DNA of 64,000 bases. Source: Bacteroidales bacterium (GTDB taxonomy: Bacteria; Bacteroidota; Bacteroidia; Bacteroidales; UBA932). A model generated the notes under the pieces. It was not told the origin of the DNA. It saw only the letters and a program-made list of their open reading frames with translations, and ran no database searches. Of this stretch, positions 7,982 through 19,325 are shown in pieces. The DNA lies in NCBI GenBank assembly GCA_012798805.1, contig JAAZMM010000004.1, forward strand, positions 1 through 64,000. The letters are read 5' to 3'. The translations under genes were made by a program, and so were the position numbers. Positions within the stretch are counted from its first letter, which is position 1, and every line of letters starts with the position of its first letter.

Positions 7982-9709
7982 ATGAAGACCAGACTCTCAC
8001 AGATTTTTCGCCCAAAATTTTTTGAGCTCTTTAAGAAGGGTAATTACAACAAAGAGACCTTCATCCAGGATTTTATTGCAGGTATAATAGTAGGCATTGT
8101 TGCTTTGCCACTGGCAATTGCTTTTGGTATTGCTTCAGGCGTTACTCCTCAGCAGGGTTTGATTACCGCTGTCGTGGCAGGTTTTCTTACATCGCTGCTC
8201 GGTGGCTCCGATTTTCTGATTGGAGGCCCTACAGGTGCATTTATTGTGATTGTGGCAGGTATTGTAGGAGAGTTTGGTATGCAGGGCCTTATCATTTCCA
8301 CTATTCTGGCAGGTATTATGCTCGTACTAATGGGCGTTTTTAAACTCGGTACCCTGATAAAATTCATTCCTTATCCCATCGTGATAGGTTTCACTTCAGG
8401 TATTGCAGTGACCATCTTTTCTACTCAGATTAAAGACTTTTTCGGATTGACGATAGCGGAAGTGCCTTCCAGTTTTCTTGCCAAATGGGGTTGCTATTTC
8501 TCAAATCTGGGTTCTATTTCCATAGCGGAAACCTTGATGTCGCTCTTCTGTCTTGCAATAATCATTTTCTGGCCCCGAGTGACCAAGAAAGTGCCCGGCT
8601 CATTGATTGCAATTATTGTTGGAACATTTATCTCGCTTATCCTTTCCCGATTTGCGGGACTGGAATTTGCTACGATAGGCAGCAAGTTTCCCGAACTCGC
8701 GGGCGGGATAGCCATACCCAAACCCGTAGCCCCGACAATTACTCTTGATACCGCTGTCAAGCTCTTTCAACCTGCATTTACCATTGCGTTTCTCTGTGCT
8801 ATCGAATCGCTGCTTGCCGCGATGGTTGCAGATGGTGCGACAGGCAAACGACATCGCTCCAATACAGAGCTAATAGGACAAGGTATAACAAACATCATAA
8901 CTCCGCTATTTGGTGGTATTCCGGCAACCGGAGCACTTGCACGTACGATGACCAACATCAATAACGGCGGCAAGACCCCCGTTGCAGGTATTATTCACTC
9001 CATTGTTCTGTTGCTGATTTTCCTCTTCCTAATGCCCTATGCAGTCTATATTCCGCTCTCTTGTCTTGCAGCAATACTCGTTATGGTGGCCTACAATATG
9101 AGTGAGTGGAGAACTTTCAAATATTTGCTAAAAGGGGATAGGGCTGATATCATAGTATTGCTGATTACATTTTTCTTGACCGTGCTTGTCGATTTGACAG
9201 TTGCTATAGAGGTAGGCTTGTTGATGGCTATTATCCTCTTTGTTAAACGTGTTTCCGAGACCTCCTCGATTACCGTCCTTGAGAGCGATTATCTCGCTGC
9301 AACAGAAAATGAGGAAAAAGCCGTACTGGAGAGTGTTGAACAGCTGAATGTGCCTGATGGAGTTGAGATTTTTGAAATAGACGGACCATTCTTCTTCGGC
9401 CTTGCCAATAAGTTGGACGAACTCGACCGACAAACCAGACAACAGATTGTCAAGGTACGTATTATACGTATGCGCAAGGTGCCTTTCATTGACTCTACAG
9501 GCATTAATAACCTTCGTAGTTTATACTTGCGTTCAAAGAAGTCCGGTATTCAGGTCATTCTCTCCGGCGTGCAGGATGACGTCTATGATACAATAGAAAA
9601 ATTTGGCCTGCTCCATGAGATAGGCCAGGAGCATGTCTTCACCCACATCATCCCGGCTTTGGCAAAAGCTACCGAAATGGTGAGTGTAACTGAAACTGAG
9701 CAAGAGTAG
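7982..9709 (+). CDS. SulP family inorganic anion transporter with C-terminal STAS domain
   Basis: ALPLAIAFGIASGVTPQQGLITAVVAGF; STAS-like VRIIRMRKVPFIDSTGINNL. Confidence 0.93.
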   Translation: MKTRLSQIFRPKFFELFKKGNYNKETFIQDFIAGIIVGIVALPLAIAFGIASGVTPQQGLITAVVAGFLTSLLGGSDFLIGGPTGAFIVIVAGIVGEFGMQGLIISTILAGIMLVLMGVFKLGTLIKFIPYPIVIGFTSGIAVTIFSTQIKDFFGLTIAEVPSSFLAKWGCYFSNLGSISIAETLMSLFCLAIIIFWPRVTKKVPGSLIAIIVGTFISLILSRFAGLEFATIGSKFPELAGGIAIPKPVAPTITLDTAVKLFQPAFTIAFLCAIESLLAAMVADGATGKRHRSNTELIGQGITNIITPLFGGIPATGALARTMTNINNGGKTPVAGIIHSIVLLLIFLFLMPYAVYIPLSCLAAILVMVAYNMSEWRTFKYLLKGDRADIIVLLITFFLTVLVDLTVAIEVGLLMAIILFVKRVSETSSITVLESDYLAATENEEKAVLESVEQLNVPDGVEIFEIDGPFFFGLANKLDELDRQTRQQIVKVRIIRMRKVPFIDSTGINNLRSLYLRSKKSGIQVILSGVQDDVYDTIEKFGLLHEIGQEHVFTHIIPALAKATEMVSVTETEQE

Positions 9710-9723
9710 CCCTATTTCGGGGA

Positions 9724-11010
9724 TTATTTAAAGAGATTTTCGACCCTGGTTATTACTCCTTCATCCGAAGCCATAGCTATTAGCGAGGGCTTCAGATAAA
9801 CTACCTTGTGTTCGCGCTGGAAACGCTCCTCTCCACCACCTGTGATATTCAGCATCGTAATGGCATCTTTTGGCATTTTGCCTGCATTGAAGGCATTGAT
9901 CATACCCTTAGTGGCAACAGCAGCAGCCGGGTGGATGTCAATCCCCTCTGTGCGCAGGAAGAGTGCCTGCATCTCTTTGATATCATCGTTGTCCGCCAGC
10001 TCTACATCGCCTCCGGCATCGCACATTGCATCATAGAGGCCTCCACGCGTCGCATAAGGGGGTCTTCTGTTGGAAAGCACCTTGGCATCAATTGCAGTTG
10101 CCTTTATGCGTGCTTCTTCGTCATCCATAGGAAGTAGGGTTTTGCTGCCTGCCTTCCACGCATCATACATAGGCGTAAAGGGAATATTTTGAGAGGGGAA
10201 GAGTTTCATCTTGTGATTGCCGAAACGACCATCTTCTATCAGTCGAAGGTTGGCCTCCCAGGCAGCTATAGCACCTGTGCCACTGCCAATTGCCTGAAAA
10301 TAGCAATCAGGAATGCGTCCGATCACCTCTGCTGCAGAGAGCACTGTTGTGGCCATACCATCTCTGCGGGCCACATTCTTTGCTCCGCCTTCGGCAAAAA
10401 ACATCCCGGATGTGCAGACTTTGTCAGCGAGTGCTATGGCATCATAATAGTCGCTGCCTTTAGGTGAGCAGATAAGTTTAACGCAGTCATTGATGGGTTT
10501 GTCAAACCACAAAGCCTCAATATTGTCTTCAGGGACACTCAATAATAATGGAATATTATTCTCGGAGCAGACTTTTGCAAATGATCTGGCAGTATTTCCC
10601 GCCGAGGCTACTACCAATACTCTTTTTTCATTGGGAGAGAGTCTGCCGCATACGGAATAGGCCTCGGTCTCCTTGAATGAACCTGTGGTCATAAAGGCAT
10701 TCTTCTCCGGCCAGTAGCCGGAAAAAGCAATATAGAGATTGGATAGACCCAGTTCTGAAGCGAGTGCCTCACTTTTATATGTCTGAGTAGCGGAAGAACC
10801 TTTGAGAGTGCGGCTTATGGGAAGCCAATCGGCAAAGCGGTAAATACCCTCATCCTGACTTCCAAATTCTATCTGCTTCTTTTCGTAAATTGCTCTTATG
10901 AGGGATGGTTCCGTACCCTTAGGGTCAGAGAGAAGCCATCCTGTGTCTTCAAATCTGCGGCCGGTGGCAATATTTTCCAGTACGTACCTAGTGGGTTTGA
11001 AATTCTTCAT
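9724..11010 (-). CDS. Cysteate synthase (threonine-synthase-like PLP enzyme)
   Basis: Fold-type II PLP enzyme (TGSFKETEAYSV, VVASAGNTARSFAKV); resembles Bacteroidetes proteins annotated as cysteate synthase; shorter than usual threonine synthase. Confidence 0.75.
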   Translation of the reverse strand: MKNFKPTRYVLENIATGRRFEDTGWLLSDPKGTEPSLIRAIYEKKQIEFGSQDEGIYRFADWLPISRTLKGSSATQTYKSEALASELGLSNLYIAFSGYWPEKNAFMTTGSFKETEAYSVCGRLSPNEKRVLVVASAGNTARSFAKVCSENNIPLLLSVPEDNIEALWFDKPINDCVKLICSPKGSDYYDAIALADKVCTSGMFFAEGGAKNVARRDGMATTVLSAAEVIGRIPDCYFQAIGSGTGAIAAWEANLRLIEDGRFGNHKMKLFPSQNIPFTPMYDAWKAGSKTLLPMDDEEARIKATAIDAKVLSNRRPPYATRGGLYDAMCDAGGDVELADNDDIKEMQALFLRTEGIDIHPAAAVATKGMINAFNAGKMPKDAITMLNITGGGEERFQREHKVVYLKPSLIAMASDEGVITRVENLFK

Positions 11011-11059: not shown

Positions 11060-12883
11060 CTATTCAATGATGTTTTCGGCAATGACCTGGGCAAAATCAA
11101 CTACTTTAACTTCAGATTGTCTGCTGAAGGTCTTCATACAGAGTGGACAGGCAGTTACAATTCTGTCAGGGGAGTTGGCTGTCAGATTGCGGATCGAATG
11201 ATCCGTAATACGCCCTCTTTCTTCGTGTGAAAGAGTGAGGCTGCCCAGAGATCCACCGCAGCAGATGCTTTCCTTGCGTTCTTTACCTGCCGGTACCAGA
11301 TCACCAACCCTTGTCAGAGCCTTGCGGGGGGCATCATATATACCACATCCTCGTCCAAGTTCGCAGGGATCATGATAGACATACTTTAACTTCTGTTTGT
11401 TCAGTTTAATGGCCCCTTCGGCGGCCAGTTGCTCAAAATATTCGGTATAGTGTATTACTTGTATTCCTTCCAAATCATAATCTTCCTTGAATATTCTGTA
11501 GCAGATAGCACAAGATACCAGCAGAATTGGCGCACCGCTCTCCCTTATAATCTCTTTATTTTTCTCCATAAGTGCTTTTGCCTCTTCAGTGCGACCGGAG
11601 AGCAAAAGCGGTCTTCCACAGCATACGGTTCCATTTTCATCCATAAGAGTAAACTCAATCCCCGCCGTTGTAAGCACTTTCTGCACAGATTGAGATACCA
11701 TCGGAGTTAATGAGCTCATACAGCCGGCATAATAGAGCACCTTCTCTCCACCTACTGAAACTGCTGATGACAGTGCACCATTTGGGAGTTTGTCGAGATA
11801 ACTAAAGTCATGTCCGATATTGTAGGGCTGTCGCTTGCGAAGTGCAAGACGAAGGTCGGTAGCTGAAATGTCGATAGGGCAGAGAACGGAACATTTACCA
11901 CACATCAGGCACTTATCAGCTATAGCCAGTGCACGTGGCTCATTTCTTCTCTTGACCTGCCGCACATAATAGACGGTAGTATTCTTGAGCCCTGCCTTGT
12001 CAACACTCATAGGGCAGGCATCCAGACAGACTCCGCAGCTGGGGCAGGAGTAGAGCTCGGCCAGAGCATAGCCCTTACGCGGTCTGCGAACTTTAATGCC
12101 CGCGTTTTTAAGGGGGATAAGAAGGATTTCTGCCGGGATATGCATATATCTGGTAAATGGCAGCACGAACATAAAGGTGCCCAGAGCTATCGAGTAGGCC
12201 CACCAGGCTATAGTGAAGTTCTCCGGTTTGCTGAGAATGCTGGCAAAGACCCAGTTTACAGGTACGGTGAGAAAACTGCCTCCGCCTACACCTGCGGTAA
12301 ATCCTTCAGCTATAAGCCTCAAAGGAAATATTGCCCAGAGTGAATAGAGTCCGATACGGTCCAGAAGTGTGAGCTTGGTAGTCCTTCTCATGCCCATCAG
12401 TTTGGAGCGGAAACGCTTGATTATGGCCAGAATAATACCACTGAGTACCACCAGCAGGAAAAAATCCATAAGGAAAAAGAGCAGGGAGCCTCTTAGAGTG
12501 GTGCTCTCTACTGCCATAAAGTATCGGAAAAATATGGGATAATAGAACAATCCGCCCCTTTCGGGAATATAGAGGAAGGTCTCAATATGACCTATGACAA
12601 TCAGCATAAACCAGCCAAAAGCAATGCTGGAGTGCATATAGCCCAGCACCTTATTGCGTTTCCAAAGCTTTACATGAAAAAGACAATCGCAAAACCAGTC
12701 ACGAATATTCTTCCCCATTATTTTGGGATTAATAAGGGATTTATAAACCTTGATGCGATCTTTACGTTCAATCTGGACCATTACCTTTATAAGCCCGACA
12801 GCACACCAAACAAGAACGAATATCATCCCCAACATGAAGGGGAGCACAAAATGGTCAAATCCTGATATGAATCTCTCCCTCAT
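11060..12883 (-). CDS. Membrane-anchored heterodisulfide-reductase-like protein: cytochrome b-like TM region + 2x[4Fe-4S] + two CCG domains (HdrE/HdrD or DsrMK-like fusion)
   Basis: N-terminal TM helices; CPSCGVCLDACP and CLMCGKCSVLCP; CCG motifs GCM...CCGRPL...SCAIC and PCELG...CCGGSLG...CPLC. Confidence 0.88.
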   Translation of the reverse strand: MRERFISGFDHFVLPFMLGMIFVLVWCAVGLIKVMVQIERKDRIKVYKSLINPKIMGKNIRDWFCDCLFHVKLWKRNKVLGYMHSSIAFGWFMLIVIGHIETFLYIPERGGLFYYPIFFRYFMAVESTTLRGSLLFFLMDFFLLVVLSGIILAIIKRFRSKLMGMRRTTKLTLLDRIGLYSLWAIFPLRLIAEGFTAGVGGGSFLTVPVNWVFASILSKPENFTIAWWAYSIALGTFMFVLPFTRYMHIPAEILLIPLKNAGIKVRRPRKGYALAELYSCPSCGVCLDACPMSVDKAGLKNTTVYYVRQVKRRNEPRALAIADKCLMCGKCSVLCPIDISATDLRLALRKRQPYNIGHDFSYLDKLPNGALSSAVSVGGEKVLYYAGCMSSLTPMVSQSVQKVLTTAGIEFTLMDENGTVCCGRPLLLSGRTEEAKALMEKNKEIIRESGAPILLVSCAICYRIFKEDYDLEGIQVIHYTEYFEQLAAEGAIKLNKQKLKYVYHDPCELGRGCGIYDAPRKALTRVGDLVPAGKERKESICCGGSLGSLTLSHEERGRITDHSIRNLTANSPDRIVTACPLCMKTFSRQSEVKVVDFAQVIAENIIE

Positions 12884-12890
12884 AATAACC

Positions 12891-13217
12891 TCAGATATTA
12901 TAAATCTTACAAATCGAAAGAATCAGGTGGCGTGTATTGATGCCTCTGGGGCAGACTATATAGCATTTGCCACATAGCATACAGGATTTTAACTGAAAAA
13001 GCAAGTCCTTTTCACAGCCTCGCTGAAGACTGAGCAGCACTTTTCTGAGATTGACATCTGTAAAAACACCTGCAGTACAGCTCGCTGCACAGGATCCGCA
13101 TGACATACACTTTAGAGCATCCGGTTCCAGGGCGCACAATTGATCAAACAAACTCAGATCTGCATCGTCGATCTCAATTGTCGAACTCGGTGTAAGAGTA
13201 TATCCGAAATCTATCAT
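12891..13217 (-). CDS. HdrC-like 4Fe-4S protein, small
   Basis: CMSCGSCAASCTAG and CMLCGKCYIVCPRG motifs, 108 aa. Confidence 0.88.
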   Translation of the reverse strand: MIDFGYTLTPSSTIEIDDADLSLFDQLCALEPDALKCMSCGSCAASCTAGVFTDVNLRKVLLSLQRGCEKDLLFQLKSCMLCGKCYIVCPRGINTRHLILSICKIYNI

Positions 13218-14230
13218 TCAGCTTTTTGTTTGAAATAGTTGTCAATTGCCATAGCTGCAGCTCTGGCTTCATTCAGTGTTTCAGGGATAGTTTTGGGACC
13301 GGTGACTGCGCCGGCAAGAAATATCCCTTTGCTATGGCTCTCAACTGGACGGAGCATTAAATCACGCGGCATGAAAAAACCATCTTCTCCCATATGAATA
13401 CCGGTCATAGAGGCGATTTCGGGATTCTCAATGCAGGGCGACATACCTGCCATAAGTACCAGCAGATCCATGGTAATTCGCAACGGTTTGCCAGCCAAAG
13501 TATCTTCTGCCTTTACTACAAGTCTTCCCTCTATATCTTCTGATACCTCTGAGACCCTGCCACGAACAAAGAAGATCCCATATTTACGCTGGGCATTGAG
13601 ATAGAGGTCTTCATATTTGCGACCGAACATTCTCAAGTCCATATAAAAACAATAAATTGAAGCATCAGGGTAGCGTTCCTTCATTTCACAGGCCTGTTTG
13701 ACGGCAGTTGCGCAGCATACTTTAGAGCACTGACGGTTGCCGGCCTTTTCATCTCTTGAGCCCACACAATGCACAAATCCTATTACTTTCGGATCTTTTA
13801 TTCTTGGATCATTTCCCGTGTTGAAAAAATGCTCAAGATCGGCATTTGTAACAACATTGTTATATATGCCGTAACCATATTCCTCCTTCTTTTCAGCGGG
13901 AAAAAGAGAAAATCCCGTAGCAAAAAGAATAGCATCAGCCTGTACTGTGATACCATTGGAGAAGATGGCCACATAGAGATGCTTGAGTCTATTGATTGAG
14001 ACAATAGCAGTATCGGTAAACCATTTGATACCCTCCATATCGGAAGTCAGGGCGGTTAGTACCTCTTCTGTGGACTCACCATCGGGAAAAAGTTTATGCC
14101 ATTTTGCGAGATGTCCTCCCAGACGGGCCTCTTTTTCGATAAGAATAGGTGTATGGCCGTAATCGCGTATTCTGCGCGCAGCTTCAATACCGGCAGGACC
14201 ACCGCCAATTATAAGTACATTGCGTTTCAT
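13214..14230 (-). CDS. HdrA-like FAD/4Fe-4S protein, short form without ferredoxin extensions
   Basis: IIGGGPAGIEAARRIRDYGH; GFVHCVGSRDE...CSKVCCATAVKQA; only 338 aa. Confidence 0.87.
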   Translation of the reverse strand: MKRNVLIIGGGPAGIEAARRIRDYGHTPILIEKEARLGGHLAKWHKLFPDGESTEEVLTALTSDMEGIKWFTDTAIVSINRLKHLYVAIFSNGITVQADAILFATGFSLFPAEKKEEYGYGIYNNVVTNADLEHFFNTGNDPRIKDPKVIGFVHCVGSRDEKAGNRQCSKVCCATAVKQACEMKERYPDASIYCFYMDLRMFGRKYEDLYLNAQRKYGIFFVRGRVSEVSEDIEGRLVVKAEDTLAGKPLRITMDLLVLMAGMSPCIENPEIASMTGIHMGEDGFFMPRDLMLRPVESHSKGIFLAGAVTGPKTIPETLNEARAAAMAIDNYFKQKAE

Positions 14231-14246
14231 TGCTTCAGGTATTATA

Positions 14247-15317
14247 TCAACAACACTTGATGTTCATAGGAAATTCCGGCATCTGTAAGAGTTTGTCTCC
14301 TTTGCCTTTATATTTATCTTCCTTGTTGTATTTGACTCCCATTTTATCCAGCAAAGGCTCAACAGCCACTTGATGAAGCTGGAGTCCCAGATCCCAGGGA
14401 TCATATCCCAGCACCAGGCCGGCAACCTCCTCATAAGTAAACACGGGAATACCATATCCATTTTCGCCATAAGTCTTACCTGTCTGTTCGGCTATCACAT
14501 ATTGCCATCTATCCATGAAATAGGGGCATCCGGGGCAGTTGGTTATGATCATATCGGGCTTATAGGGCTCCATCGATTCAAACTTTTTGTAGGTATTGGA
14601 CATGGAATAGCCACGATTGGCCTTGACAAGATATTGTCTGAAACCAAATCCGCAGCAATGTCTGCGCTCAGGGTAATCGATGACTTCTCCTCCCCAGGAG
14701 TCAATCATACCGGCAAGAACATAGGGATATTCGGCACCTCCTACACCTTTAGAGGGGAACATTTTGGAATAGTGGCATCCGATGTGTTCTACAACTCTCA
14801 GAGGTTCGCCCGTGAATTTATTAACAAGACGATGCTTCGCACGGGCTGCAATTTCGTTACGGAACTTATAGATAATGTCGCTGGCATGGGCCAGATATTT
14901 CGGTTTTTTTAATTCACGTTTGCAAGAATTCCAGAGATGTTCCCGGATTTTATCTTCAAGATCGGGAAAAGTCCTCCAGTCTTCAAGAACTTCAGTGTAG
15001 AGACCAAATGAAGTAATACAGGAGCATACGTAGTTTTCGTAGCCATGTTCAGCCATTAGCGCAAACTGGCGGGCGATGATGGTCATCATTGTTTCTTGAG
15101 GCAGGGCTTCTGCATGATATGCAATACCACCGCAAGTGGTATGGTGCTCTGTTTCAAAGAAATCCTTGTCAAGTTTGTTGCGGACTATGTCGAGAAATGC
15201 CACTTCTGAGCCCGGAAAAAAGCCCTGACGTATGCAACTTCTAACATAAAACCAATGGTCATCAGGAATCTCTTTCTGATAATCGGACCATATTTTCTGT
15301 TTTCCCTGAAATATCAT
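14247..15317 (-). CDS. HdrB-like CCG-domain protein
   Basis: Canonical second CCG motif HIGCHY...RHCCGFGF...TNCPGCPYF; first CCG motif degenerate (TTCGG...CSC). Confidence 0.88.
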   Translation of the reverse strand: MIFQGKQKIWSDYQKEIPDDHWFYVRSCIRQGFFPGSEVAFLDIVRNKLDKDFFETEHHTTCGGIAYHAEALPQETMMTIIARQFALMAEHGYENYVCSCITSFGLYTEVLEDWRTFPDLEDKIREHLWNSCKRELKKPKYLAHASDIIYKFRNEIAARAKHRLVNKFTGEPLRVVEHIGCHYSKMFPSKGVGGAEYPYVLAGMIDSWGGEVIDYPERRHCCGFGFRQYLVKANRGYSMSNTYKKFESMEPYKPDMIITNCPGCPYFMDRWQYVIAEQTGKTYGENGYGIPVFTYEEVAGLVLGYDPWDLGLQLHQVAVEPLLDKMGVKYNKEDKYKGKGDKLLQMPEFPMNIKCC

Positions 15318-15334
15318 TTCCGTGTTGTTTAAAA

Positions 15335-16030
15335 TTAATGGTTGAGATGGTCCTTTTCGGTATCCTCAAAAGCTTTCCTTTCATATTCGTCATAGGGGAG
15401 GCCCATCTCTTTTGCTTTACGCTTGGATGCCTCCTCTATTATCTCCATACGGCGCGTAGCACCGGTTTCGTCAAATATGGCCTTAAGCTCAGCGAGAGAT
15501 TCGTCTGGGATTTTTCTCAGAATTCCCGGACCTTCACCATCGAGATTTGCCCCGAGGCGCTCATAAACATCTTCCATGTTTTCGTTCAACCATTTGCCGG
15601 TAAGGCCATATTCCGGATGATCTTTATAGAGGAAAGTACGAGGATATACGCAGTACCCATAGTTCAGGATATTGCTTTGCATACGGTGTACAAGAGGGAG
15701 CATCTGTCGTCCTTTTTCACTTTCCACAAAATATCCCATATCTATAGAGAGCGACCGCAGTGCCATAACGACAAGCCCGGGAGCATTGCGTCTGGGACAG
15801 CGTGTCACGCAGGACATACATTCGCCGCAGTACCAGATCTGTTCACCTTTCAGCAATTCTTCAATCTTGGCCTCATCCTGGCTCTGGACGATGTTGACTA
15901 TGTTTTTGGGATTGTATTTATAAAATTCTGCAGCAGGGCAGATTGCCGTGCAGGTACCGCAGTTAATACAGGCTTTTAACCCCTCTTTAATGCGGTAATC
16001 CTGGATTAATTTATCGTAAAGTTTACCCAT
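15335..16030 (-). CDS. HdrC-like 4Fe-4S protein, large
   Basis: CINCGTCTAICPAAEFYKYNP and CGECMSCVTRCPRRNAPG; start chosen at MGKLYDKLIQDY rather than the ORF start at 16093. Confidence 0.85.
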   Translation of the reverse strand: MGKLYDKLIQDYRIKEGLKACINCGTCTAICPAAEFYKYNPKNIVNIVQSQDEAKIEELLKGEQIWYCGECMSCVTRCPRRNAPGLVVMALRSLSIDMGYFVESEKGRQMLPLVHRMQSNILNYGYCVYPRTFLYKDHPEYGLTGKWLNENMEDVYERLGANLDGEGPGILRKIPDESLAELKAIFDETGATRRMEIIEEASKRKAKEMGLPYDEYERKAFEDTEKDHLNH

Positions 16031-16097: not shown

Positions 16098-19000
16098 TTA
16101 CAAAGTGTACTCGTCCCAGCTCTTAATTTCGATCTCTTCGATGGGCAGATTGCAGAAAGAAATTATGAATGCAGTAGCCAGTCGGGTATTTGTAATCAGC
16201 GGAATATTGAAGTCCACAGCAGCACGACGTATCTTGTAGCCGTTACTCAATTCCGATTCGGTGAGATTCTTAGGTATATTGACAACAAAGTCTATCTCTT
16301 TGTTCTGTATCATCTCCAGAGCACTTCGCTCATCTCCATTCTCGCTGGGCCAGAGAACTCTGGTAGCGGGAACATTGTTTTCTACAAGGAATTTATAGGT
16401 ACCGGCCGTAGCAAAAAGTTCGTAGCCCTGTTTTACCAGCAGACGGGAGGCATTGAGCATCTCTGCTTTTTGGCGTGCATCTCCTGTAGAGAGAAGGATG
16501 TTCTTCTTGGGAATGGTATATCCTACGGAGAGCATGGATTTCAGAATGGCCTCATTAGTGTCATCGCCGATACAGCCTACCTCACCGGTAGATGCCATAT
16601 CTACGCCCAATACGGGGTCTGCTTTTTGTAAACGGGAAAATGAGAACTGCGAGGCTTTTATGCCGACATAATCGAGATCAAAGGCATTCCTGGATGGCGA
16701 TGGAGGGTTTTCGCCGATCATTACCCGGGTGGCAAGTTCGATAAAATTGATCTTTAGAACTTTGGATACAAAGGGGAAGCTCCTCGATGCTCGTAGGTTA
16801 CATTCGATAACCTTGATGTCATTCTCCCTTGCAAGGAATTGGATATTGAAGGGACCGGAGATATTGAGCTCTTCCGCTATCCTGCGTGCGATCTTCTTGA
16901 TCCTCCTGGCGGTTTCGACATAGAGTTTTTGGGGAGGAAACTGAATGGTGGCATCACCGGAGTGCACTCCGGCAAATTCTATATGTTCGGATATGGCGTA
17001 GGCAATTACTTCGCCGTTGTTGGCCACCGCATCGAACTCAATTTCCTTCGCATTTTCTATAAATTCACTCACTACTACCGGATGTTTCTTGGAAATATTT
17101 GCTGCAAGGGAGAGGAATCGGTGCAACTCTCCTTCATTGGAACAAACATTCATAGCAGCACCCGAAAGCACATAGGAGGGGCGCACAAGGACCGGAAATC
17201 CGACCGTCTCTACAAAGTGATGAATGTCGTCAAGGGTGGTAAGTTCCTGCCATTTGGGCTGGTCAACTCCGATTGAATCGAGCATTGAGGAGAATTTATG
17301 TCTGTCTTCAGCCCTGTCAATGCTTGACGCAGCTGTTCCGAGAATATTTACACCGCTCTGCTCCAGGCGTAGAGCGAGATTGTTGGGAATCTGTCCTCCT
17401 ACAGAGAGAATGATGCCGTGTGGCTCTTCAAGCTCATAGATATCCATAACCCTTTCGAATGTGAGCTCGTCAAAATAGAGACGGTCACATATATCGTAGT
17501 CGGTAGAGACTGTTTCGGGATTATAGTTGATCATAATGCCTCTCCAGCCCGATTTGCGGATAGTCTGGAGGGCATTCACGCTACACCAGTCAAACTCTAC
17601 CGAGCTGCCGATACGGTAGGCACCTGAACCGAGCACAATAATGGATTTTCCATCCTTCTCATACTCTATATCATGTGCCTCTCCATTGTAAGTAAGGTAG
17701 AGATAGTTGGTTTTTGCGGGAAATTCAGCTGCAAGAGTATCAATCTGTTTAACATAGGGCACAATGCCGAGTGATTTGCGGTATTTGCGGATGCGAAGGA
17801 CCTGCTCTTCAGTATCAAGTCTATCCTTGAATACCAGACGACCGATCTGAAAATCGGAAAAGCCTAGCTGTTTGGAGAGTTTCAGGAGTTCAAAGTCCAC
17901 TTCTTCGGGTTTGTTTGCTTTTTCCAGTTCATCAGCTACAAGCACTATGTTGTACAACTTCTCGACAAACCATTTATCGATTTTGGTCAGCTCGCATATC
18001 TCATCTACTGTATAACCCTTCTGAAAGGCCTTAGAAATGACGAAAATGCGGTTGTCAGTAGGTTCGCGCAGTGCTTTGTCTATATCAGGCACCACAATCT
18101 CCTTATTAGCTACAAATCCATGTGCTCCTTGCCCAATCATTCGCAGACCCTTCTGCATCGCCTCTTCAAAATTACGGCCGATTGCCATTACCTCACCGAC
18201 ACTCTTCATACTGCTGCCGATCTCCCTGGAGACTCCGTGAAATTTGGAGAGATCCCAGCGGGGGATTTTACAGATCACATAATCGAGAGCAGGTTCAAAA
18301 AATGCCGAAGTAGAACGTGTAACGGAGTTTTTGAGCTCAAATAGTCCGTAGCCGAGGGCGAGCTTTGCCGCAACTGTAGCGAGTGGGTAACCGGTAGCCT
18401 TTGATGCAAGAGCCGAACTCCTCGAGAGGCGTGCATTTATCTCAATAACGCGGTAATCATAGGATTGAGTGTCGTATGCAAATTGTACATTACACTCGCC
18501 GATTATACCGACATGGCGTGCTATTTTGATTGCCAGCTCTTTTAGCATTGATATATCGTGATAGTCCAGAGTCTGACAGGGAGCCACCACAATGCTCTCT
18601 CCGGTATGTATTCCGAGGGGATCGAAATTTTCCATATTGGCTACAGCGATACAATTGTCATATTTGTCACGCACCACCTCGTACTCTATCTCCTTCCAGC
18701 CTCTGAGCGATTTTTCCACCAATACCTGTGGGGAATAAGAGAAGGATTTCTCCGCGAGGAGGTTGAGTTCCTCTTCATTGTCGCAAAATCCGCTACCCAG
18801 GCCTCCAAGTGCATAAGCAGCTCTAAGGATTACCGGATAGCCGAGTTCTTCAGCTGCCTTTCTGGCATCTTCGATATTTTTCACCGCATGGCTTTTGATA
18901 ATCTTGACCCCAATCTCATCCATCTTCTGATTGAAGAGATTTCTATCCTCACTGTCGATAATAGCCTGTACAGGGGTTCCGAGCACTTTAATATCGTATT

Positions 19001-19325
19001 TTTCAAATACCCCCGCCTCAAAAAGCTTTACACCGCAGTTAAGAGCGGTCTGGCCTCCAAAGGCAAGCAGAATACCTTGTGGACGCTCTTTCTCGATTAC
19101 TTTTTCTACAAAGTAGGGGGTGACGGGGAGAAAATAGATTTTGTCTGCAACACCTTCGGATGTTTGTACGGTAGCGATATTGGGGTTGATCAGGACTGTA
19201 TATATTCCCTCTTCTTTCATTGCCTTGAGGGCTTGTGAGCCGGAATAGTCAAATTCACCGGCTTCACCGATCTTAAGTGCTCCCGACCCCAGCAGAAGTA
19301 CTTTCTTGATGCTTGTATCTATCAT
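16098..19325 (-). CDS. carB: Carbamoyl-phosphate synthase large subunit
   Basis: 1075 aa duplicated ATP-grasp architecture; GSGALKIGEAGEFDYSGSQA, GSGAYRIGSSVEFDWCSVNA. Confidence 0.96.
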   Translation of the reverse strand: MIDTSIKKVLLLGSGALKIGEAGEFDYSGSQALKAMKEEGIYTVLINPNIATVQTSEGVADKIYFLPVTPYFVEKVIEKERPQGILLAFGGQTALNCGVKLFEAGVFEKYDIKVLGTPVQAIIDSEDRNLFNQKMDEIGVKIIKSHAVKNIEDARKAAEELGYPVILRAAYALGGLGSGFCDNEEELNLLAEKSFSYSPQVLVEKSLRGWKEIEYEVVRDKYDNCIAVANMENFDPLGIHTGESIVVAPCQTLDYHDISMLKELAIKIARHVGIIGECNVQFAYDTQSYDYRVIEINARLSRSSALASKATGYPLATVAAKLALGYGLFELKNSVTRSTSAFFEPALDYVICKIPRWDLSKFHGVSREIGSSMKSVGEVMAIGRNFEEAMQKGLRMIGQGAHGFVANKEIVVPDIDKALREPTDNRIFVISKAFQKGYTVDEICELTKIDKWFVEKLYNIVLVADELEKANKPEEVDFELLKLSKQLGFSDFQIGRLVFKDRLDTEEQVLRIRKYRKSLGIVPYVKQIDTLAAEFPAKTNYLYLTYNGEAHDIEYEKDGKSIIVLGSGAYRIGSSVEFDWCSVNALQTIRKSGWRGIMINYNPETVSTDYDICDRLYFDELTFERVMDIYELEEPHGIILSVGGQIPNNLALRLEQSGVNILGTAASSIDRAEDRHKFSSMLDSIGVDQPKWQELTTLDDIHHFVETVGFPVLVRPSYVLSGAAMNVCSNEGELHRFLSLAANISKKHPVVVSEFIENAKEIEFDAVANNGEVIAYAISEHIEFAGVHSGDATIQFPPQKLYVETARRIKKIARRIAEELNISGPFNIQFLARENDIKVIECNLRASRSFPFVSKVLKINFIELATRVMIGENPPSPSRNAFDLDYVGIKASQFSFSRLQKADPVLGVDMASTGEVGCIGDDTNEAILKSMLSVGYTIPKKNILLSTGDARQKAEMLNASRLLVKQGYELFATAGTYKFLVENNVPATRVLWPSENGDERSALEMIQNKEIDFVVNIPKNLTESELSNGYKIRRAAVDFNIPLITNTRLATAFIISFCNLPIEEIEIKSWDEYTL

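Follow-up and report, generated by a model that had tools for sequence, protein, structure and literature searches.

The question raised by this locus is what a five-gene heterodisulfide reductase (Hdr)-like operon does in a member of the Bacteroidales. The operon lies in the window, i.e., the whole stretch of 64,000 nucleotides of contig JAAZMM010000004.1 that was analyzed. An earlier note on this DNA had predicted the genes C1-B-A-C2-DE, likened them to the sHdr clusters of sulfur oxidizers and called the substrate unknown. The gene prediction holds, as five intact open reading frames (ORFs) were found on the minus strand in an order that recurs in relatives, and the operon is a real and widespread membrane-anchored relative of sHdr, free of the lipoate-binding protein LbpA. 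Sulfonolipids are sulfur-containing relatives of sphingolipids, and cysteate synthase catalyzes the first, sulfite-consuming step of their synthesis. The operon is linked to this pathway both physically and phyletically and probably has a role in it. This linkage suggests sulfite supply, which narrows the question of the substrate.

Physical linkage of the Hdr operon to sulfonolipid genes

In the window, a cysteate synthase gene begins 50 bp downstream of DE on the same strand, and the unit runs beyond DE. Cysteate synthase also follows DE directly in eight other loci (L034, L035, L127, L130, L135, L142, L152 and L154), which include Bacteroidales bacterium CF and Cryptobacteroides. In other lineages the pathway genes are found directly upstream of C1, as a CapB-like acyltransferase, a threonine-synthase-like candidate cysteate synthase, SDR and/or VOC genes (L054, L057, L065, L066, L095, L099, L103, L117, L139 and L150). 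No flanking genes conserved operon-wide were detected among the first 40 regions, and the sulfonolipid signal emerged only when single neighbourhoods were read. Cysteate synthase converts phosphoserine-derived aminoacrylate and sulfite to L-cysteate (PMC12713407). CapB/SulA and then CapC make capnine, and the archaeal-type cysteate synthase is used by Alistipes and Odoribacter for sulfonolipids (PMC10191378).

Co-occurrence with CapB and interchange with CysH

Co-occurrence was counted over 295 genomes of the same order, with presence defined by E-value thresholds that we set, and also with one genome per family (119 families). CapB is present in 86 of the 92 genomes with Hdr, while only 123 of the 203 without Hdr carry it (odds ratio (OR) = 9.3, P-value = 9e-10); with one genome per family the values are 37 of 38 and 51 of 81 (P-value = 2.8e-5). 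In family f1, the small genome G126 (99% complete) has Hdr, CapB, cysteate synthase and CysH missing all together, and in families f41, f81, f108, f24 and f47 genomes without both Hdr and CapB stand beside relatives with both.

CysH is PAPS reductase, an enzyme that makes sulfite and works from sulfate. At least one of the two, Hdr or CysH, is carried by 193 of the 209 genomes with CapB and by 23 of the 86 without it (OR = 33, P-value = 1e-29). Among CapB-positive genomes Hdr and CysH are negatively associated (OR = 0.28, P-value = 3e-4), 86 carrying Hdr, 107 carrying CysH without Hdr and 16 carrying neither. The interchange is also visible in gene order. Three genomes without Hdr (G240, G145 and G069; L168-L170) show the order cysteate-synthase-like gene, CysH, CapB, and another (G085; L171) has CapB, CysH, one further gene and a cysteate-synthase-like gene. 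CysH, CysD, CysN and CysQ-like genes lie near pathway genes both in G062, without Hdr (L173), and in G167, with Hdr (L172). The identity of CysH was confirmed for two of these cluster proteins. Because CysH changes places with Hdr in the same clusters, and the SDR and VOC genes are common to the Hdr-type and CysH-type clusters, Hdr appears to stand in for the sulfite source. Among the 32 genomes with Hdr and without CysH, cysteate synthase is of the TIGR03844 type in 16 and of another cysteate-synthase-like type in 9.

Distribution of the operon

The distribution check proposed in the earlier note was carried out on the same 295 genomes. The operon is present in about 92 of them; DE homologues of full or nearly full length are found in about 89, and essentially the same set carries HdrB. 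The order C1-B-A-C2-DE, complete or with single ORF-call gaps, is kept by most of the 40 Bacteroidales regions that were retrieved. It is also found in most named Bacteroidales loci, at DE identities of 36-66%, and its recurrence at such identities shows that the operon is not a chance arrangement. Two regions (L065 and L066) have the variant order C1-C2-DE-B-A, and a few lack some parts. The named relatives include Bacteroidales bacterium CF, Rikenellaceae, uncultured Alistipes, Tidjanibacter and Cryptobacteroides. Among 248 genomes of the phylum, the genome of the window was the only one in which the HdrB subfamily (E <1e-100) was found, all further matches being distant, so within the phylum it appears restricted to the order Bacteroidales.

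Further relatives outside the phylum occur in two deltaproteobacterial metagenome-assembled genomes and in cyanobacteria. The cyanobacterial clusters are soluble, with the order C1-B1-A-C2-B2 (L074 7242-12982 on a plasmid of Picosynechococcus sp. PCC 7003, and L076-L091), and sometimes include an SQR-like flavoprotein. Stand-alone C1-B pairs were also observed, with neighbours named by eye: in Bacteroidales bacterium CF (L106 6315-8068) NifX-like and DUF134-like genes adjoin the pair; at L155 686-3585 HdrA-long-like and QmoC-like genes and an Mrp-type ATPase adjoin it; and at L149 2562-4414 cysteine-desulfurase-like and cysteine-synthase-like (CysK-like) genes are near.

Subunits, conserved residues and predicted folds

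The domain make-up given in the earlier note was confirmed for C1, C2, HdrA and DE (Table 1). In C1 all eight cysteines of the two clusters are conserved (C21/24/27/31 and C68/71/74/78), and an in-frame TTG is an alternative start that would lengthen the ORF to 16093. HdrB has a single complete CCG site, the C-terminal one (C181, C221, C222, C261 and C264), while the N-terminal site is degenerate, with C28, C62 and C100 left. DE consists of a helical b-type cytochrome region, two 4Fe-4S sites and two complete CCG domains. Across aligned homologues of HdrA, HdrB and DE, residues were listed as conserved at a level of at least 97%. These include all the HdrB cysteines just named and, in HdrA, the [4Fe-4S] site C155, C168, C172 and C173. 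In DE they include H70, H84, H248, eight ferredoxin-type cysteines and both CCG sets (C388/C421/C422/C458/C461 and C507/C541/C542/C579/C582).

HdrA aligns with the sHdrA structure 6TJR over residues 4-328, its full length (E 5.6e-64). The closest match of the HdrB model is methanogen HdrB (5odc_B), which merely confirms the HdrB fold. The predicted model of DE (pLDDT 87) matches Mycobacterium smegmatis EtfD (9ojn) in Foldseek (E 1.8e-19, TM 0.74). EtfD forms an electron wire and contains a b heme together with a menaquinone that is putatively bound, and Thr and His substitutions in it alter the cluster chemistry (PMC13083937). The earlier note had compared the last subunit to HdrDE and DsrMK. 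Its membrane anchoring stands and the model matches EtfD; a DsrMK-like sulfite reduction does not stand, and was rejected, as siroheme sulfite reductase (NIR_SIR) was found in 0 of the 32 genomes with Hdr and without CysH (DsrC was not searched).

Table 1. Positions of the Hdr operon and associated genes in the window
Feature	Position	Strand	Remarks
Whole operon, order C1-B-A-C2-DE	11060-16030	-	All five ORFs intact
HdrC1-like ferredoxin subunit, two [4Fe-4S]	15335..16030	-	From ATG; domain search
HdrB (sHdrB1-type), 356 aa	14247..15317	-	Domain search, alignment, model
Short HdrA flavoprotein, 338 aa, without ferredoxin domains	13214..14230	-	Domain search, alignment
HdrC2-like ferredoxin, 108 aa, two [4Fe-4S] motifs	12891..13217	-	Domain search
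HdrDE-type membrane fusion (DE), 607 aa	11060..12883	-	Domain search, alignment, model
DE CCG domains	11492-11740 and 11126-11383	-	Both complete
Cysteate synthase	9724..11010	-	TIGR03844, 455 bits vs equivalog cut-off 325
SulP/STAS anion transporter, facing the operon	7982..9709	+	System membership tentative

Several neighbouring genes were observed besides these. The carB gene (window 16098-19325) stops 5 bp ahead of the long C1 reading frame, and transcription of the operon may continue from carAB. In Bacteroidales bacterium CF the SulP gene (L035 13076-14851) is on the same strand as the cysteate synthase gene and overlaps it. Sulfonolipid clusters of both the Hdr and the CysH kind repeatedly contain a double-VOC-domain protein of about 355 aa (e.g., L065 10669-11739, L169 11207-12262 and L172 8153-9268). 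Two single loci show links to sulfur metabolism: a methionine gamma-lyase-like gene begins 6 bp after DE in L105 (11274-12458), and the cysteine-desulfurase-like and cysteine-synthase-like genes of L149 mentioned above are near its C1-B pair.

Relation to sHdr

The likeness to sHdr proposed earlier holds for the short HdrA without ferredoxin domains and, in part, for gene order. The first four genes follow the sHdr order C1-B1-A-(hyp)-C2-B2, while the place of the soluble B2 is filled by the membrane DE fusion. Two loci of the same phylum, L187 and L188, carry type-II-like sHdr clusters with LbpA, a DsrE-like protein, C1, B1, A, EtfAB and a membrane EMO-like protein of 679-701 aa, the genes being named by eye from the sequence. 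The N-terminal signature of HdrB1 (SC / [TS]C / CxTS[FY]) is common to the operon and the B1 of L187 and L188, unlike methanogen HdrB. However, the C-terminal CCG site is complete in the operon HdrB, while the HdrB1 of L187 and L188 has lost one C-terminal Cys, and the Bacteroidales operon is without LbpA, DsrE and EtfAB and is linked to a biosynthetic pathway.

The phylogeny of HdrA and HdrB, also proposed in the earlier note, was reconstructed. In the HdrA tree, 6TJR, L187 and L188 form one clade (100/99), while the operon HdrA has its nearest relatives in the cyanobacterial cluster (92/92), outside the sHdr clade. In the HdrB tree, in which long branches are flagged, the operon falls on the sHdr/cyanobacterial/delta side, apart from methanogen HdrB. 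Given the position of HdrA and the absence of LbpA, DsrE and EtfAB, plain membership in sHdr was not supported.

The absence of a lipoate-binding-protein gene, noted before in the window, extends to all fetched operons, none of which has LbpA nearby. LbpA has conserved N- and C-terminal cysteines (PMC6067878). GcvH is present in 30 of the 32 genomes with Hdr and without CysH (G018 and G255 have none), and of the 12 GcvH sequences read 11 are devoid of Cys, which sets them apart from the LbpA of L187 and L188. G156, of low completeness, has two further GCV_H matches, which lie outside the GcvH sequences read. With no LbpA near the operons and mostly Cys-free GcvH sequences, an LbpA-dependent sHdr was rejected.

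Proposed function and alternative explanations

We lean slightly towards the reading that the Hdr-like complex supplies sulfite for L-cysteate and capnine-type sulfonolipids in anaerobic Bacteroidales, above all in those without CysH. Whether it does so as an assimilatory, O2-independent route, in which an LbpA-free membrane-anchored Hdr oxidizes sulfide or sulfane sulfur and replaces CysH in gut and sediment Bacteroidales, seems to us evenly balanced. sHdr systems produce sulfite (PMC10332631), and together with the sHdrB1-type N-terminal signature this supports sulfite production by the complex. We infer sulfite as the product, as well as the sulfur substrate, the electron path, the direction of the reaction, the quinone and the quinone coupling of the complex. 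HdrB would, at its complete noncubane-type cluster site, oxidize sulfide or protein-bound sulfane sulfur to sulfite, and the electrons would pass from C1 to the FAD and [4Fe-4S] cluster of the short HdrA, then to C2 and into DE with its clusters and b heme. DE would pass them to menaquinone, which might be re-oxidized by, e.g., fumarate reductase. Cysteate synthase would couple the sulfite to phosphoserine to give L-cysteate, CapB would condense the cysteate and a fatty acyl group, and capnine would then be formed by a ketoreductase.

The potentials are about -116 mV for HSO3-/HS-, about -74 mV for menaquinone and about +33 mV for fumarate/succinate, so that menaquinone-dependent sulfide oxidation to sulfite would be slightly favourable and further pulled by sulfite consumption. 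G000, G008 and G224 each encode a full-length fumarate reductase flavoprotein, and menaquinone-synthesis genes were detected in some carriers, the picture being mixed overall.

Several observations weigh against sulfite supply by the complex. Gene searches detected no MenA in carriers G000, G224 and G001 and no MenD in G000, G001, G081 and G101. Most Hdr operons do not adjoin sulfonolipid genes, and the genome counts were corrected by family only, not by the full tree. CysH is carried as well by 56 genomes with Hdr and CapB, and six genomes with Hdr lack CapB (four of these are <85% complete). sHdr requires LbpA, which is absent from the Bacteroidales operon. Finally, 16 CapB-positive genomes have neither Hdr nor CysH; one of them, G201 (99% complete), has both cysteate synthase and CapB, a gene content suggestive of uptake or of a third sulfite source.

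The core shared with sHdr, the quinone-type membrane subunit and the SQR-like flavoprotein adjoining the cyanobacterial relatives would also fit a dissimilatory sulfur oxidation into the quinone pool, for energy or redox balance, in which the sulfonolipid link merely exploits or detoxifies sulfite. We regard this as unlikely, since the near-nesting of Hdr in CapB-positive genomes, the interchange with CysH and the co-loss with cysteate synthase suggest assimilation, and no sox, dsr or LbpA genes were seen near the operons. Less probable still is a menaquinol-linked reductase of a small-thiol disulfide or persulfide, working in the direction of methanogen HdrDE, with an indirect sulfonolipid link. 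It would agree with an HdrB model nearest methanogen HdrB and with two complete CCG sites in DE as in HdrD, without the Thr/His substitutions of EtfD (PMC13083937), but it would leave the CysH interchange inside sulfonolipid clusters unexplained, and no thiol cofactor genes are linked.

About equally improbable is a service to a different sulfonolipid step, such as electrons for a later modification. Linkage and co-occurrence point to the pathway and not to the step, and the double-VOC protein, of unassigned role, recurs in the clusters; however, only 16 of the 209 CapB-positive genomes lack both Hdr and CysH, and the SDR and VOC genes are the same in both kinds of cluster. The match of the DE model to EtfD raises an ETF:menaquinone oxidoreductase (EMO/EtfD-type) for beta-oxidation, which is very improbable: EtfD has no need of HdrABC subunits, and no etf genes were noticed around the operons, where genes were compared by length clusters and by eye, whereas etfAB is present in L187 and L188, both type II sHdr loci. 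With no etf genes noticed there, an ETF oxidoreductase was rejected as the principal role.

The membranes of gut and environmental Bacteroidota contain sulfonolipids, which are bioactive. Three papers on these lipids (PMC9304779, PMC11211663 and PMC10191378) do not mention sulfite, and among the papers covered by our literature search none was found that ties heterodisulfide reductase to sulfonolipids. If sulfite supply by the Hdr complex is true, a family of Hdr complexes without an assigned role receives a function, Hdr-type sulfur oxidation is anabolic as well as energy-yielding, and LbpA is not universally required for it.

Comparison with known systems

As modelled, DE is like EtfD/EMO in that a single chain combines a b-heme membrane domain with two 4Fe-4S sites and a pair of CCG domains, but both of its CCG sites are complete and its partners are HdrC1-B-A-C2, not ETF. 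Methanosarcina HdrDE and DsrMK likewise pair a membrane cytochrome b with a CCG catalytic protein, whereas DE is a single fused chain accompanied by four soluble Hdr subunits, and the Bacteroidales operon has neither CoM/CoB nor DsrAB/C chemistry. The folds of HdrA, HdrB and HdrC are those of the bifurcating HdrABC complexes (MvhAGD-, Fdh- or Flx-linked), but the operon HdrA has no ferredoxin extensions, and no MvhD, Flx or hydrogenase genes were seen beside the operon. CysH in the sulfonolipid clusters of other Bacteroidales holds the same cluster position and is likewise a proposed sulfite source for cysteate synthase, but it is an unrelated protein and starts from sulfate, not from reduced sulfur.

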